Positions 541 to 27,351 of a stretch of 32,331 nt of DNA are shown piece by piece. Under the pieces are notes generated by a model, which was given only the letters and a program-made list of their open reading frames with translations, was not told the origin of the DNA and made no database searches. Both the position numbers and the translations under genes were made by a program. The stretch is from assembly GCA_015057875.1 (NCBI GenBank), contig SVDG01000004.1:1-32331 (forward strand). The letters are read 5' to 3'. The number at the start of each line of letters is the position of its first letter. Position 1 is the stretch's first letter. The DNA is from Lachnospiraceae bacterium. GTDB lineage: Bacteria; Bacillota; Clostridia; Lachnospirales; Anaerotignaceae.

Positions 541-3128
541 TTTTCTGAAGGATTTGAAAATCTGTATGACCAGTGTAGGCATAAAGGCTAAAAGATAGAC
601 TGTACCCAGCTGGCTTAAACTGAGTGGAGTTACCTCAAAAAGCTTCTGCAGGAAGGGTATAAACATAACAAGGCTTATAAGCACCAAACCTGAGCCGAAA
701 GCGAGTAAGCTTGCGGGGTTTTTGGATAAACCGCTTTTAAAGATATTGTATCTGCTGCGGCAGTTAAAGCCGTGGAAGAGCCTTGCAATCGTAAGGGTCG
801 CAAAAGCCATTGTGCTTGCAAGGACACTTCCGCCTATATCAAGACCGATGTAGAAGGCACAAAGTGTTGCAGCCGCTATAAGGGCACCCTGACTTAATAC
901 AGAGAATAAAAAGTCCTTTGTAAGTATGCCTGTTTTGGGGTCTCTTGGTCTGTCATTTAAAAGGTCTTTTTCAGCAGGCTCCATACCTATTGCAATAGCA
1001 GGCAGAGAGTCTGTTAAAAGGTTTATAAATAACAGATGCACAGGTGCAAAGGGAACGGGCAGGGCAAGGAGAGAGCAGTAAAGCACGCTTATTATACCCG
1101 CCATATTACCTGAAAGAAGGAACTTGATGGCATTTTTAATGTTTTTATAAACATTCCTTCCGTTTGCAACGGCTTTTATTATTGTGGCAAAGTTGTCATC
1201 TGTAAGTATCATAGCGGCGGCATCTTTTGAAACTGCTGTTCCTGTTATGCCCATTGCAACGCCTATGTCGGCCTTTTTAAGGGCAGGGGCATCATTTACT
1301 CCGTCACCTGTCATTGATACTATAAAGCCTTTTTTCTGCCATGCATCAACTATACGTATTTTGTTTTCGGGAGAAACACGTGCATAAACTGATATTTTTG
1401 TTATCACGCTGTCAAGCTCATCGTCTGTCATAGCGTCAAGCTCAGGGCCTGTTACAGCAATGTCACCGTCTTCAAAAATGCCTATCTGACGGGCTATTGC
1501 TGTTGCTGTGACCTTGTGGTCACCTGTTATCATAACAGGGCGTATACCGGCACGTTTTGCATCCTCAACAGCCTCCTTGGACTCTTCTCTTGGAGGATCT
1601 ATCATGGATATAAGGCCGAGGAAGGTGAAACCGTCCTCTTCCTCAAGGGTAAGTTCGTGTTCATCATGAACTTCTTTGTAAGCAAAGGCAAGTACTCTTA
1701 AGCCTTCGTTTGAAAATTCCGTATTTTTATCGAGGATAGTCTTTTTATCTTCTTCTGTTAGGGGGCGTATGTCATCGTTTATCCTTATATTTTCAACTCT
1801 GTCAAGCAGAACATCAACAGCACCCTTTGTAAGCACCGTAGGTACTCCGTGAAGATGGTATTTTGTGCTCATAAGCTTTCGGTCAGAGTCAAAGGGAAGT
1901 TCCTCAAGGCGGGGCATAAGCTCCCTTATAAACACATCGTCAAGACCGATCTTTCTCGCCATTTCAACAAGGGCAAATTCTGTAGGGTCTCCGATACCTT
2001 TACCATCAACGATAGTGGAATCATTACTTAATATGGCATCATATAAAAGATAGCGGTGAAGCTGGCTTGAAAGGTCTATATGCTCTATGTTGAGGGTCTT
2101 GCCGCCTATATATACCTGCTGAACTGTCATCTTGTTCTGTGTCAGTGTACCTGTTTTATCAGAGCAGATAACAGATACCGAGCCAAGACTTTCAACAGCC
2201 TTAAGCTCTTTTATTATGGCATTTCCTTTGCCATTTTCTGTGTGCCGAGAGCCTGAACTATTGTTACGATAGAGCTTAAAGCCTCCGGTATTGCCGCAAC
2301 AGCAAGGGCCACGGCAAACATAAGGGAATCAAGTACGGGCATATCCCGATAAAGACTTAATACAAAAACAAGGGCACAAACAGCCATTATGGCTATAGCA
2401 AGCTTTTTGCTGAATTCATCAAGGCTTATCTGCAAGGGGGTTCGCTTTTCCTTTGTTTCATTCATAAGGCCTGCAATTTTTCCAATCTCGGTATCCATTC
2501 CCGTGCCTGTTACAACAACGGCCGCACGGCCATAGGTAACGAGGGATCCTGAAAACACCATATTTATTCTGTCCCCCAAGGGCACATCTTCGGTTATATC
2601 GCTTGCGTATTTATCTACGTTTGTAGATTCACCTGTAAGCGAGCTTTCATTTACCTGAAGGGAGAAGTTATCTATGATCCTTCCGTCTGCAACAACAAGG
2701 TCACCTGCTTCAAGCATTATTATGTCGCCGGGAACAACTTCTTTTGATGGTATCTCCGTTTTTTGTCCGTTTCGCATGACCTTTGCAACAGGGGCTGATA
2801 ATGACTTTAAGCTGTCAAGGCTCTTTTCAGCCTTTATGTGCTGAATAGTGCCTAATACAGCGTTAAGTATTATAACGGCAAGTATAACTATCGTACTTTC
2901 GGTGTTGCCCGAAAAAAAAGATATTATAGCGGCTATGATAAGTATGATAACAAGTAGGTCCTTAAACTGTTCAAAAAATACCTGAACAGTACTTTTCTTT
3001 TTGCCTTCCGAAAGGGCATTTTCACCGTGCTTTTCAAGCCTTATTTTTGCCTCTTCGTCCGTAAGACCATTTTTTGTTGTATTTTTTTCTTTAAGCACTT
3101 CCTGTGCGGATAAACGATAATATTCCAT
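538..3128 (-). pseudogene. P-type cation (Ca2+/Mn2+) ATPase, frameshifted into two ORFs
   Basis: This is a PMR1/PacL-like P2-type ATPase, a membrane pump for Ca2+ or Mn2+. The first ORF (3128 to 2214) holds the N-terminal cation-ATPase domain, the TGES actuator motif (residues 165-168) and the PEAL ion-site helix (281-284). The second ORF (2130 to 538) holds DPTEFAL, KGAVD, MITGD, TGDGVNDAPALKKADIG and the C-terminal membrane helices. Between them the frame is open but shifted: after KMAKE the annotated frame reads MP-stop, while the other frame reads AIIKELKAVESLG and then DKTGT, the phosphorylation site. One A is missing in GGAAATGCC at 2221-2224; restoring it gives a product of about 863 residues, normal for the family. 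A GGAGGAG ribosome site precedes the ATG at 3128. The Mn riboswitch upstream points to manganese export. Either a true null allele or a sequencing error. Confidence 0.85.
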
Positions 3129-22286: not shown

Positions 22287-24224
22287 TTACATATTTTCCA
22301 TAAGGAGCTCAAGTATTTTGTTGCTTCTATCTATGAAGGCAGACATATCATCGGGTTCGAGTGCTTTCTGACTTATCTGTGCAAGGTCAAAAAGCTGACG
22401 GCAGATAAGCTCTGTAACATCTTTCTTTTCCATATTGTCCTTAAGCTTAAGGAAGCCCTTAACAAGAGAGTTGTTTGAGTTAAGCACAAGTGTAACATCG
22501 GGCTTGATATTGCCGAACATATCGGCTATCTGTCCCTGTCCGCGTTCACGGTATATCTTCTGTATCTCGGCCATACGTCTTGCTTCTTCTGAAACAAGGA
22601 GCATACCTGATACTGAAGAAGCCTTAAGGGGCTCGACCTTAACAAAAAGCTCCTGTTTATCGAGGATACCGCGGAAGAGGTTCTGCACTTCGTCGTTTGT
22701 GCGTGCAGCGGCTTCTTTTTCTGCTTCTGAAGCGTTTTCATCGCTTTCTTTCATATTGTCGGAAAGCTCGCTGTCTACTCTTAAAAGAGTTATGTTTCCG
22801 TCTTCTTTCATCTCAAGGATAGTAACGAAGGGACGGTCTATTTCTGAGTTGAGGATAAAGGCGTCCATACCCTGCTCCTTAAAGAGCTTGATATACTGGC
22901 TCTGCTGGCTTACATCGTTTGCGTAGTAGATGGTGTCACCTGTTATATCCTTGTTATCTGCGATAAACTCATCAAGTGTCTGGTATTTATCGGAGAAAGT
23001 TTTGTAAATAAGGGCAGATTTCATCTTATCGTAGAATTTCTCTTCTTTTACGCAGCCGTATTTGATGAACATACTGATGTCATCCCAGATCTTTTCATAA
23101 TGCTCTCTTTCGTTTTTAAAGAGCTTAACAAGCTTATCCGCAACTTTTTTGGAAACGTAATTGCTCATTTTACCTGAATAGCCATCATTCTGAAGAGTGC
23201 TCCTTGATACGTTAAGGGGCATATCGGGGCAGTCCATAACACCTTTAAGAAGGAGAAGGAACTCGGGGACAACTTCCTTGATGTTATCCGCAATATAAAC
23301 CTGATTGCAGTAAAGCTTAACTTCTCCGTCAAGGGTATCTGTCTGGTTGATGATCTTGGGGAAGTAGAGTATACCCTTAAGTCTGAAAGGATAGTCCATA
23401 TTAAGATGTATCCAGAAAAGAGGGTCGTTCATATCAAAAAATACCTTGTGGTAGAATTTGATATAATCTTCGTCTGTAAGCTCATTAGGCTGTCTGAGCC
23501 AGAGAGGAGTTGTTTCGTTTATAAGCACAGGCTCGTCAGGTGTTGTTTCCTCTTCTTTTTCATTACCCTCAGCAACAGGCTGGGGTTTTCTTATATAATC
23601 GTAGTAGATCTCTACGGGCATAAATGAGCAGTATTTATCTATTGCCGCACGCAGAGTGTATTTATCAAGGAATTCCTTGCCATCTTCACCTATATATAAT
23701 GTTATTGTAGTTCCGCGGTCAGTTTTATCGCTTGCATCCATTTCAAACTCAACGCCGCCTTCGCATATCCATTTGGCAGCCTCGGCACCTTCTTTATAAG
23801 AAAGTGAGTTTATCTCTACTTTATCAGCTACCATATATGCTGAATAGAAGCCAAGACCAAAGTGACCGATTATCTGGCTTCCTTCATCCATTTTGTCCTG
23901 ATATTTTGATATAAAATCAGTTGCACCTGAAAAAGCTATCTGATTTATATATTTTTTTATCTCGTCTGCTGTCATACCGATACCGTTATCGGTTATCTCG
24001 ATCGTTGAGTTTTCCTCATCAACAACAACGCTTATGTAGAATTTTTCATCAGCCTTGATGTGGGGTGCTTCTCCCATACCCATAAGCTTCTGTAATTTGT
24101 TTACAGCATCACAGCCGTTTGAAATAAGCTCACGGATAAAGATGTCCTTATCTGTGTAGAGCCATTTTTTTATGATAGGTAAAAAATTGTCGCTGTTGAT
24201 AGAAAGGTTGCCCTGTTCTTTCAT
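22287..24224 (-). CDS. htpG: Hsp90-family chaperone HtpG
   Basis: The ATP-dependent cytosolic chaperone. The GHKL ATPase domain shows FIRELISNGCDAVNKLQKL, ITDNGIGMTADEI and GHFGLGFYSAYMVADKVEI; the middle domain contains PLWLRQPNELTDEDYIKFYHKVFFD and RLKGILYFPK; the C-terminal dimer domain ends LLMENM. Length is 645 residues. AAGGAGG precedes the ATG. The acidic insert GNEKEEETTPDEP lies between the ATPase and middle domains, like the charged linker of eukaryotic Hsp90. Upstream are a promoter, three inverted repeats and a CIRCE element, indicating heat-shock control, probably by HrcA. Confidence 0.96.
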   Translation of the reverse strand: MKEQGNLSINSDNFLPIIKKWLYTDKDIFIRELISNGCDAVNKLQKLMGMGEAPHIKADEKFYISVVVDEENSTIEITDNGIGMTADEIKKYINQIAFSGATDFISKYQDKMDEGSQIIGHFGLGFYSAYMVADKVEINSLSYKEGAEAAKWICEGGVEFEMDASDKTDRGTTITLYIGEDGKEFLDKYTLRAAIDKYCSFMPVEIYYDYIRKPQPVAEGNEKEEETTPDEPVLINETTPLWLRQPNELTDEDYIKFYHKVFFDMNDPLFWIHLNMDYPFRLKGILYFPKIINQTDTLDGEVKLYCNQVYIADNIKEVVPEFLLLLKGVMDCPDMPLNVSRSTLQNDGYSGKMSNYVSKKVADKLVKLFKNEREHYEKIWDDISMFIKYGCVKEEKFYDKMKSALIYKTFSDKYQTLDEFIADNKDITGDTIYYANDVSQQSQYIKLFKEQGMDAFILNSEIDRPFVTILEMKEDGNITLLRVDSELSDNMKESDENASEAEKEAAARTNDEVQNLFRGILDKQELFVKVEPLKASSVSGMLLVSEEARRMAEIQKIYRERGQGQIADMFGNIKPDVTLVLNSNNSLVKGFLKLKDNMEKKDVTELICRQLFDLAQISQKALEPDDMSAFIDRSNKILELLMENM

Positions 24225-24250: not shown

Positions 24251-24299
24251 ATTACTTAAAGTAATGATAATATTTTTATCAATGATACTATTGTATCAT
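24251..24299 (-). repeat. Three adjacent inverted repeats in the htpG leader
   Basis: ATTACTTAAAGTAAT (24251-24265), TGATAATATTTTTATCA (24265-24281) and ATGATACTATTGTATCAT (24282-24299) follow each other without gaps. The last one covers the -10 hexamer. They may be operator sites or leader hairpins; none matches a box I can name. Confidence 0.55.
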
Positions 24300-24317
24300 C
24301 CACAAATAAAAAGTCAA
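24290..24317 (-). promoter_or_regulatory. Promoter of htpG
   Basis: On the minus strand, TTGACT (24312-24317), 16 bases, then TACAAT (24290-24295). It lies just downstream of the CIRCE element. Confidence 0.72.
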
Positions 24318-24324
24318 TAAAAAT

Positions 24325-24351
24325 TTAGCACTCAATAAGCTTGAGTGCTAA
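24325..24351. promoter_or_regulatory. CIRCE element (HrcA operator)
   Basis: TTAGCACTC, nine bases, GAGTGCTAA: a perfect match to the CIRCE consensus bound by the heat-shock repressor HrcA. It sits seven bases upstream of the htpG -35. It also encodes the last residues (VSTQAY-stop) of the upstream gene and, as RNA, forms a hairpin followed by ATTTTTATT on the minus strand, so it could act as a terminator as well. Confidence 0.92.
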
Positions 24352-24902: not shown

Positions 24903-26354
24903 ATGATATTCAATTCTTACGAGTTTATCGAATTTTTTATAATTTCATCATTGATATATTTCGTTGTGCCACAAAGGGTAAAATGGCTCGTTCTGCTTGT
25001 TGCAAGCTATATTTTTTATATGGCGTGGAGAACAGAGCTTATTGTGCTTATTGTTTTTTCAACGTTTATAAACTACTTCTTTGCGGGGCGTATATATAAG
25101 CAAAAGGACAGGACAAAAAAGAAAAGGAGCCTTATACTTTGCCTTGTTATAAACTTCGGGCTTCTTTTTGTTTTTAAATATCTTACCTTTGCAACAAATA
25201 CCTTTGAGTGGCTTTTCGGCATTTTAGGTATAGGCTATACACACAGGGAGTTTGATATAATCCTTCCTATGGGTATTTCCTTCTATACCTTCCAGGCATC
25301 GGCTTATACCATAGATGTTTACAGGGGAGATATAAAGCCGGAGAGGAACTATCTTAAATTTTCGTTATTTATAAGCTTCTTCCCACAGCTTGTGGCGGGG
25401 CCTATCGAGAGAACAAAAAATCTGCTTCCTCAGTTTTATGAAAAGCATAAGTTTAGTCTGCAGAGGGTCTATTACGGTGTGCAGATAATGCTTTACGGCT
25501 TCTTTAAAAAGGTCGTTATTGCAGACAGGTTGGCAGTTGCTGTAAATACGGTTTATAACAACGCGGGAAGCTATGGCGGACTTTCTTTTGTTGTGGCTAC
25601 TGTGCTTTTTGCTTTCCAGATCTATTGTGACTTTTCGGGCTATTCCGATATAGCAAAGGGTGCGGCTAAGGTGCTTGGTTTTGATCTTATGGATAACTTT
25701 AAAAGCCCTTATCTTTCAACAGGCATCAAGGAATTCTGGAGAAGATGGCACATATCCCTTTCAACATGGTTTATGGATTATGTATATATTCCCTTGGGTG
25801 GAAACAGATGCGGTAAAATAAGGAGCCTTTTTAATCTTTTTGTTACCTTCCTTGTAAGCGGACTGTGGCACGGTGCAAACTGGACATTTGTTTGCTGGGG
25901 CGCTCTGCACGGGATCTATATGGTTATAGGAAGACTTATAGGCGGAAACAGGAAAAATGCAGAAAAGAGAAATTTCGTTTTAAATATTGTAAAATGTGCT
26001 TTCACATTTGCCCTTGTTACCTTTGGCTGGATATTCTTCAGGGCAAATACCGTAAGCGATGCCTTCTATATAATAGCCCATCTTTTTGATGATGTATCGG
26101 GCTGGTCAAGTGTGCAGTATCTTTATGATGTGGCTACAGGAATGGGCCTTAACGTAGCAGAGCTTTTTGTTGTGGCTTTTTCAATAATGCTTCTTATCTT
26201 TATGGAGCTTATAAGCGGCAGGAAGCAGGTTTTTGATTATTTCAGGCAGAAGCCTTATATCATAAATGTAGGTTTTATGGCGGCACTTGCCATAATAATA
26301 CTTACGACAGGAGTGTTCTATAATGCGGGAGAGTTCATCTACTTCCAGTTTTAA
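24903..26354 (+). CDS. MBOAT family O-acyltransferase (AlgI/DltB-like)
   Basis: A 483-residue polytopic membrane enzyme with roughly ten or more helices. The signatures are PMGISFYTFQASAYTIDVYRG, PQLVAGPIERTKNLLPQF, FQIYCDFSGYSDIAKG, EFWRRWHISLSTW and SGLWHGANWTF, the last holding the conserved histidine of the family. Such enzymes move acetyl or other acyl groups across the membrane onto wall polymers or exopolysaccharide. It starts with ATG at 24903 after a modest ribosome site (GGAATGG). The next gene, an SGNH-type protein, overlaps its end by 32 bases, as in AlgI/AlgJ-type pairs. The acyl acceptor cannot be told. It is not dltB by context, since dltA, dltC and dltX are absent. Confidence 0.92.
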   Translation: MIFNSYEFIEFFIISSLIYFVVPQRVKWLVLLVASYIFYMAWRTELIVLIVFSTFINYFFAGRIYKQKDRTKKKRSLILCLVINFGLLFVFKYLTFATNTFEWLFGILGIGYTHREFDIILPMGISFYTFQASAYTIDVYRGDIKPERNYLKFSLFISFFPQLVAGPIERTKNLLPQFYEKHKFSLQRVYYGVQIMLYGFFKKVVIADRLAVAVNTVYNNAGSYGGLSFVVATVLFAFQIYCDFSGYSDIAKGAAKVLGFDLMDNFKSPYLSTGIKEFWRRWHISLSTWFMDYVYIPLGGNRCGKIRSLFNLFVTFLVSGLWHGANWTFVCWGALHGIYMVIGRLIGGNRKNAEKRNFVLNIVKCAFTFALVTFGWIFFRANTVSDAFYIIAHLFDDVSGWSSVQYLYDVATGMGLNVAELFVVAFSIMLLIFMELISGRKQVFDYFRQKPYIINVGFMAALAIIILTTGVFYNAGEFIYFQF

Positions 26355-27351
26355 AATAATATTGGCGATAGTCTTCGTTCTTGTTGTAACGGGAGCGGTA
26401 GGCAGATTTGTCGGTAGAAAGTATGAATATGCCGCAAGCCTTAACACGATAAATGCCTTTACGGCCCAAAGATTTGAGGATTTTTATGCTCTTGATGAAG
26501 ATAGCCTTGATATGGTGTTTATAGGCTCAAGCCATTCATACTGCAGCTTTGATCCGGCTAATTTTGATGTGCCTTCTTTCCAGATGGGTACACCCTTACA
26601 GCATCCGGACACAAGCTATTATTCGCTTTTAGAGGTGCTTGATAATCAGGACCCGGAAACAGTAGTTGTTGAGGTCTACTGGGATATGCTCGATGATGAT
26701 TTTGAGCTTAAGCAGGCAACCTCGCTTTTTGAAGTTATGCGTAACGAAAAAAGGATAGAGGACTATATTGAAAACGTGTTCCCCGAGGGAGACAGGGTGA
26801 AGTATGAAACGCCTGTTATACGCTTTCAGCAGGATTTCTTTGCATACGCTTCCTCAAGGCTCGTAAATAAGGCTAAAGCTATGTTTGGTGTAGCAGATGA
26901 GGCAGTTCCTTCATCAGCGGGCGAGGGTGTAGAGTACTATCTTGCTGACGGATATGTTTACTGCGATATAGTTATACCCGAGGCGGAATTTGATGAAACC
27001 AACCAGTTTAAAAACCTTGACGGAAAGGACTGGGAGTTTTCAAAAACGCAGAAAAAATGGCTTGAAAAAATAGTTGAGCTTTGTGATAAAAAGGATAAAA
27101 CCCTTATTTTTGTAACGGCGCCTGTTGCCAATGTGTCTATGGGCTATATAAAAAATTATGAGCTTATCCATAACAAGATAGCAGCCTTTGCACAAAGCAG
27201 AGGCGTGCCTTATATTGATTACAATATTATCAATATGGAGGAGAAAATGTTCAGCCACGAAAACTTCCGTGATGATGCACACCTTAATGACAGCGGAGTT
27301 AAGATACTTGATGCACATTTTAAGGAGTGGTTAAGTGATGTTTGTGGGTAA
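26323..27351 (+). CDS. SGNH-type membrane-anchored protein, partner of the MBOAT enzyme
   Basis: A 342-residue protein with one N-terminal helix (FKIILAIVFVLVVTGAVGRFVG), probably a membrane anchor with the rest outside. The SGNH nucleophile block is FIGSSHSYCSFDP (serine near residue 68) and the D-x-x-H block is DDAHLNDSG near the C-terminus; the middle DPETVVVEVYWDML also fits DltD/AlgJ-like proteins. It likely completes acyl transfer from the MBOAT protein to an extracellular polymer. AGGAG at 26309-26313 lies nine bases ahead of ATG 26323, inside the MBOAT coding region, so the overlap is real and translation is coupled. Confidence 0.85.
   Translation: MRESSSTSSFKIILAIVFVLVVTGAVGRFVGRKYEYAASLNTINAFTAQRFEDFYALDEDSLDMVFIGSSHSYCSFDPANFDVPSFQMGTPLQHPDTSYYSLLEVLDNQDPETVVVEVYWDMLDDDFELKQATSLFEVMRNEKRIEDYIENVFPEGDRVKYETPVIRFQQDFFAYASSRLVNKAKAMFGVADEAVPSSAGEGVEYYLADGYVYCDIVIPEAEFDETNQFKNLDGKDWEFSKTQKKWLEKIVELCDKKDKTLIFVTAPVANVSMGYIKNYELIHNKIAAFAQSRGVPYIDYNIINMEEKMFSHENFRDDAHLNDSGVKILDAHFKEWLSDVCG

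Follow-up and report, generated by a model that had tools for sequence, protein, structure and literature searches.

A CIRCE operator upstream of a predicted htpG promoter encodes the coding end of the neighbouring DUF5721 gene

In the Lachnospiraceae genome studied here, a CIRCE element stands before the chaperone gene htpG and runs into the end of the gene upstream of it, which raises the question of how many roles one short element can play: operator for the repressor HrcA, coding end of a neighbour, terminator of that neighbour's transcript, or several of these together. The window considered below is the whole stretch of DNA that was analysed, 32,331 nucleotides in length. The original prediction held that this perfect CIRCE is both an operator and the coding end of the upstream gene, and this part of it holds. 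The site follows TTAGCACTC-N9-GAGTGCTAA with 0 mismatches, it is followed by htpG, and it spells V-S-T-Q-A-Y-stop of the upstream ORF (Table 1). It is also the single site in the window with up to 3 mismatches to CIRCE, where 0.01 would be expected by chance. We consider it very probably the HrcA operator that controls htpG, held across the order at a fixed place directly upstream of the predicted -35 element.

Geometry of the htpG operator and its promoter

On the minus strand, the operator reads (G)TT AGC ACT CAA GCT TAT TGA GTGCTAA. In the frame of the upstream ORF, the whole junction runs ATC TCT GTT AGC ACT CAA GCT TAT TGA GTGCTAA ATTTTTA TTGACT TTTTATTTGTGGATGA TACAAT, with the valine codon of the VSTQAY tail sharing two of its bases with the operator.

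Table 1. Features of the DUF5721-htpG junction, in window coordinates.
Feature	Position	Strand	Description
CIRCE operator for HrcA	24325..24351	minus	perfect, 0 mismatches; 20/27 bases inside the DUF5721 reading frame, including its stop
DUF5721 gene, 147 aa	24332..24775	minus	PF18988, E = 1.7e-32; CIRCE encodes VSTQAY + TGA
TGA stop of the DUF5721 gene, inside CIRCE	24332..24334	minus	ORF translation
ATTTTTA run between CIRCE and -35	24318..24324	minus	with the CIRCE hairpin resembles an intrinsic terminator
Predicted htpG promoter, TTGACT-16 nt-TACAAT	24290..24317	minus	TG before -10 (extended -10); start expected near 24283
htpG (bacterial Hsp90), 645 aa	22287..24224	minus	HSP90 profile, E = 5.8e-53; ATG at 24224

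The original prediction had left out a strong, near-consensus promoter just downstream of the CIRCE. Because this promoter stands between the CIRCE and htpG, the operator is placed upstream of the predicted -35 element and not in the leader immediately behind the transcription start, a location that is typical of CIRCE although it does not define the element in all bacteria (PMC4245973). To place this layout among others, we compared 96 htpG, 16 groES, and 15 hrcA loci. The median distance from CIRCE to the start was 91 nt for htpG, 32 nt for groES, and 25 nt for hrcA. A TTGAC motif begins exactly 7 nt past the CIRCE in 89/96 htpG loci and 6 or 8 nt past it in 5 more; none of the 31 groES and hrcA loci has TTGAC 6-8 nt past the operator. 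The htpG -10 elements follow at 16-18 nt after the -35, with TG before the -10 in 40/92. At groES and hrcA, clear promoters are located upstream of the CIRCE, leaving the operator in the 5' leader.

Within the order, 23 of the 29 htpG genes carry a CIRCE, and the other 6 loci are without one. The arrangement extends further into the class: outside the order, the operator was found at 13/29 htpG genes, with the same spacing in 11 of these 13. In a phylum sample of 399 genomes, the composite pattern was present in 8, of which six belong to the order and two lie elsewhere. In a search of genome contigs, HtpG itself found matches in Anaerotignum, Chakrabartyella, and other clostridial records.

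The genome encodes hrcA (PF01628, E = 3.8e-58), and its assembly (1.46 Mb, 85% complete, 125 contigs) contains exactly three CIRCEs, all perfect, before groES, hrcA, and htpG. Among relatives, clpB and hsp20, named by inspection of their translations, also bear CIRCE or CIRCE-like sites. In four loci (L225, L246, L250, and L235, with CIRCE at about 1487-1527), the -35 element of a clpB-like gene, TTTACA, falls within the CIRCE spacer, and TATAAT follows after a further 17 nt. In several relatives (including L228 and L260, with the site near 1487-1514), an Hsp20-like gene is preceded by TTAGCACTCACCTCTTGACAGTGCTAA or a close variant of it, a CIRCE-like site whose right half holds a -35-like TTGACA.

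The hrcA promoter of the genome itself has a further peculiarity. An inverted repeat, TAGCACTTGACA-N13-AAGTGCTA, spans it from -35 to -10; the repeat recurs in six other loci, and one of its positions shows a compensatory change (GC, UA, AU). The repeat could be a terminator, or else another operator placed within this promoter. The gene upstream of this hrcA is a HemN/HemW-like radical SAM gene.

Two other places in the window were recorded in passing. On the minus strand, a cation-transporting P-type ATPase seems to be divided between two ORFs (538-2130 and 2214-3128) that do not share a frame, which appears to be a frameshift or an assembly error. On the plus strand (24903-27351), an MBOAT O-acyltransferase gene overlaps a gene without a Pfam match, and the two are possibly a polysaccharide acetylation pair.

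The operator as coding end of the DUF5721 gene

DUF5721 has, to our knowledge, no known function; the open-access literature yielded no mention of it, and a search with the protein for named relatives among genome contigs gave no match. The neighbourhood of DUF5721 and htpG is widely kept. We compared the tails of 163 DUF5721 genes, drawn from both the family and the wider order, the latter sample ranked by family score, and measured the distance from each stop to the next CIRCE. The CIRCE overlaps the stop in 14 of these genes, begins no more than 60 nt past it in 56, and lies farther away in 19; the remainder have no CIRCE nearby.

In 13 of the 14 overlapping genes, the reading frame enters the operator in the same frame, and all 13 tails carry ST followed by Q, R, or L. 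In the remaining overlap (G297), only a TAG stop is supplied, by the first bases of the CIRCE. The same ending is absent from the other 150 of the 163 proteins, including 68 that do not adjoin a CIRCE or htpG. This comparison had been proposed with the original prediction, and VSTQAY-like tails in orthologues away from htpG, which would have contradicted it, were sought among the 163 genes: none was found. Since all 13 such tails run into a CIRCE and none of the 150 other proteins ends in this way, the DUF5721 tail is written by the operator. VSTQ as a conserved feature of DUF5721 was rejected, as it is present only at CIRCE overlaps. The tails of orthologues without the overlap are similar in length but differ in sequence; the tail is thus free to vary, and it is the operator that writes it.

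Four family groups of the order contain overlapping genes. In a quick tree, at least 9 changes are needed to account for the coding overlap, which is scattered over weakly supported branches; due to this weakness, the overlap may still have a single origin followed by losses.

Terminator likeness and competing readings

The original prediction also proposed that the hairpin and the T-run following it could end the upstream transcript, and here the evidence is divided. In its anatomy the element fits: a U-run comes immediately after a stable hairpin with G and C in its stem, and the site matched a terminator pattern. The folded CIRCE RNA forms an 11-bp hairpin (-15.3 kcal/mol, z = -4.7; no shuffle was equally stable) that leads into five Us. 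The 7 nt after the CIRCE contain on average 5.4 Ts at htpG, 1.3 at groES, and 1.1 at hrcA, and the 7 nt before the hrcA and groES -35 elements are mostly not T-rich, so that the T-run was rejected as a general feature of heat-shock promoters. Self-complementarity of the htpG CIRCE spacer, considered as a way of strengthening the hairpin, gave a mixed result, with fewer first pairs and more double pairs.

The orientation of the upstream gene bears on the question. At loci with a divergent upstream gene, a small group from which false automatic calls (antisense ORFs, htpG read backwards) were set aside by hand, the run holds about 5.1 Ts in 7 (TTTTTTC, TTTTTTA, TTTTGTC, TTTCTTC, TTTTTTC, and TTTTTGG), as against a mean of 5.2 at codirectional loci. 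Pfam assigns the divergent neighbours to CBS, bacterial PH, Cu/Zn SOD, peptidyl-tRNA hydrolase, and Mur ligase, the CBS assignment being a match on one locus, with its close relatives judged by sequence. At five loci from two family groups, the divergent CBS-domain gene is inserted between DUF5721 and the htpG CIRCE. Because divergent loci are equally T-rich, the T-run is not tied to a codirectional gene, and a need to stop transcription of the neighbour does not account for it, which weakens it as proof of a terminator. Termination of the DUF5721 transcript at the CIRCE and T-run is thus plausible from its anatomy; the T-run is probably linked mainly to the promoter, with the terminator likeness a by-product of promoter sequence.

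A rival reading, which we rate somewhat below even, is that the CIRCE with its T-run is genuinely dual, under selection as intrinsic terminator of the DUF5721 transcript as well as HrcA operator. It would explain why the T-run occurs at htpG CIRCEs and not at the leader CIRCEs of groES and hrcA, where termination would do harm, although that difference may equally reflect avoidance in leaders and not selection at htpG. At many loci the CIRCE begins no more than a few tens of nucleotides past the stop, leaving little room for another terminator ahead of it, and where the CIRCE is missing, DUF5721 and htpG can abut closely in an operon-like manner, as in L063 and in two Defluviitaleaceae loci (L302 and L303, near 2400-2500), where a DUF5721-like coding end lies about 13 nt before htpG. 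Besides the T-rich divergent loci, a few codirectional loci speak against it by having no T-run (AATATTG, AATCTTC, AAAATTA), as does the stem of the CIRCE, in which only 4 of 9 pairs are G-C. An extended version, in which about 34 bp would combine the stop codon, the DUF5721 terminator, and the HrcA operator upstream of -35, such that HrcA binding both represses htpG from this atypical position and alters 3'-end formation or read-through of the neighbour, appears unlikely to us.

The coding overlap could also be selectively meaningful, either because an ST(Q/R) tail matters to DUF5721 or because translation through the CIRCE affects htpG. The shared frame of the overlaps favours this, as non-overlapping neighbours use all three frames (20:25:11). 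However, the relatives are not independent, entry in either of the two alternative frames would lead at once to a TAG (a single case, G297) or to a longer LALxxxEC tail, and non-overlapping orthologues manage with tails of equal length and unrelated sequence; we regard selection on the overlap as quite improbable. Even less credit is due to the idea that an unrecognised promoter lies within the DUF5721 gene and that the CIRCE is an operator in its leader, the arrangement found at groES and hrcA. CIRCEs are usually placed in leaders, as in Lactobacillus plantarum (PMC1676014), but a near-consensus promoter lies at a fixed distance past the CIRCE in almost all htpG loci, and both groES and hrcA have a clear promoter upstream of their CIRCE. 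An operator upstream of the -35 element thus remains our preferred reading.

A model of the locus and its relation to known systems

In the model that we propose, HrcA in unstressed cells would sit at about -68 to -42 of the htpG promoter, centred at about -55, and would keep RNA polymerase (sigma region 4 or the alpha C-terminal domains) off it. For repression by simple steric hindrance, a centre at -55 is unusual. Following the established HrcA model, repression would last until misfolded proteins titrate GroE, and upon heat or misfolding stress HrcA would leave the htpG operator, as at groES and hrcA. Only a short gap separates DUF5721 from htpG, and the DUF5721 frame therefore often ends right beside the operator. 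In this genome and several others it enters the operator, which therefore supplies the last residues and the stop, an end that the variable tail tolerates. The hairpin and T-run may in addition end the DUF5721 transcript. Overall, the locus is a case of ordinary regulation in a compact, conserved arrangement. Its sites, geometry, conservation, and encoded tails are direct observations; from them we infer its functions, namely HrcA binding, the direction of regulation, the start site, and termination.

The placements at groES and hrcA (leader), at clpB and hsp20 of relatives (across -35), and at htpG (upstream of -35) amount to one operator sequence at three promoter positions within one regulon, and therefore form a ready-made set for studying the mode of repression by HrcA. 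Furthermore, a protein can owe its last residues to a fixed operator next door, so conserved C-terminal tails should not be read as functional by default.

The claim that HrcA control of htpG is notable stands relative to Bacillus subtilis, for which the dnaK and groE operons are listed as the HrcA regulon (PMC8957991). It does not stand for clostridia. HrcA sites at htpG have been published for Clostridium acetobutylicum, in which htpG counts among the class I genes and is induced together with other HrcA genes under solvent stress (PMC3828012), and for C. cellulovorans (PMC8336468). In the cited passages, as here, the CIRCE is upstream of htpG (hsp90), beside sites at groESL and hrcA-dnaK, and htpG is predicted to be class I; in contrast to the present analysis, those passages are silent on where the site lies with respect to the promoter, on the T-run, and on the upstream coding overlap.

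Leader-type CIRCEs of groESL and dnaK operons share the operator sequence and the repressor family. In L. plantarum, the CIRCE begins 3-4 nt past the transcription start (PMC1676014), a leader placement common to the groES and hrcA CIRCEs of our genome, whereas its htpG operator, which is followed by a T-run, stands 7 nt ahead of the -35 element and not in the 5' leader. The cited passages on Mycoplasma gallisepticum describe a CIRCE upstream of the promoters of clpB, dnaK, lon, and dnaJ_2 (PMC4245973), much as at this htpG; the genes differ, and fixed spacing or overlap with a coding end or terminator is not described there. We found no description in the open-access literature of the fixed 7-nt placement upstream of -35, of the T-run, or of a CIRCE encoding a neighbour's stop, an arrangement that is apparently undescribed. 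In clostridia, htpG was already known to be under HrcA control, and the conserved layout with its merged coding end is a small new twist on this.
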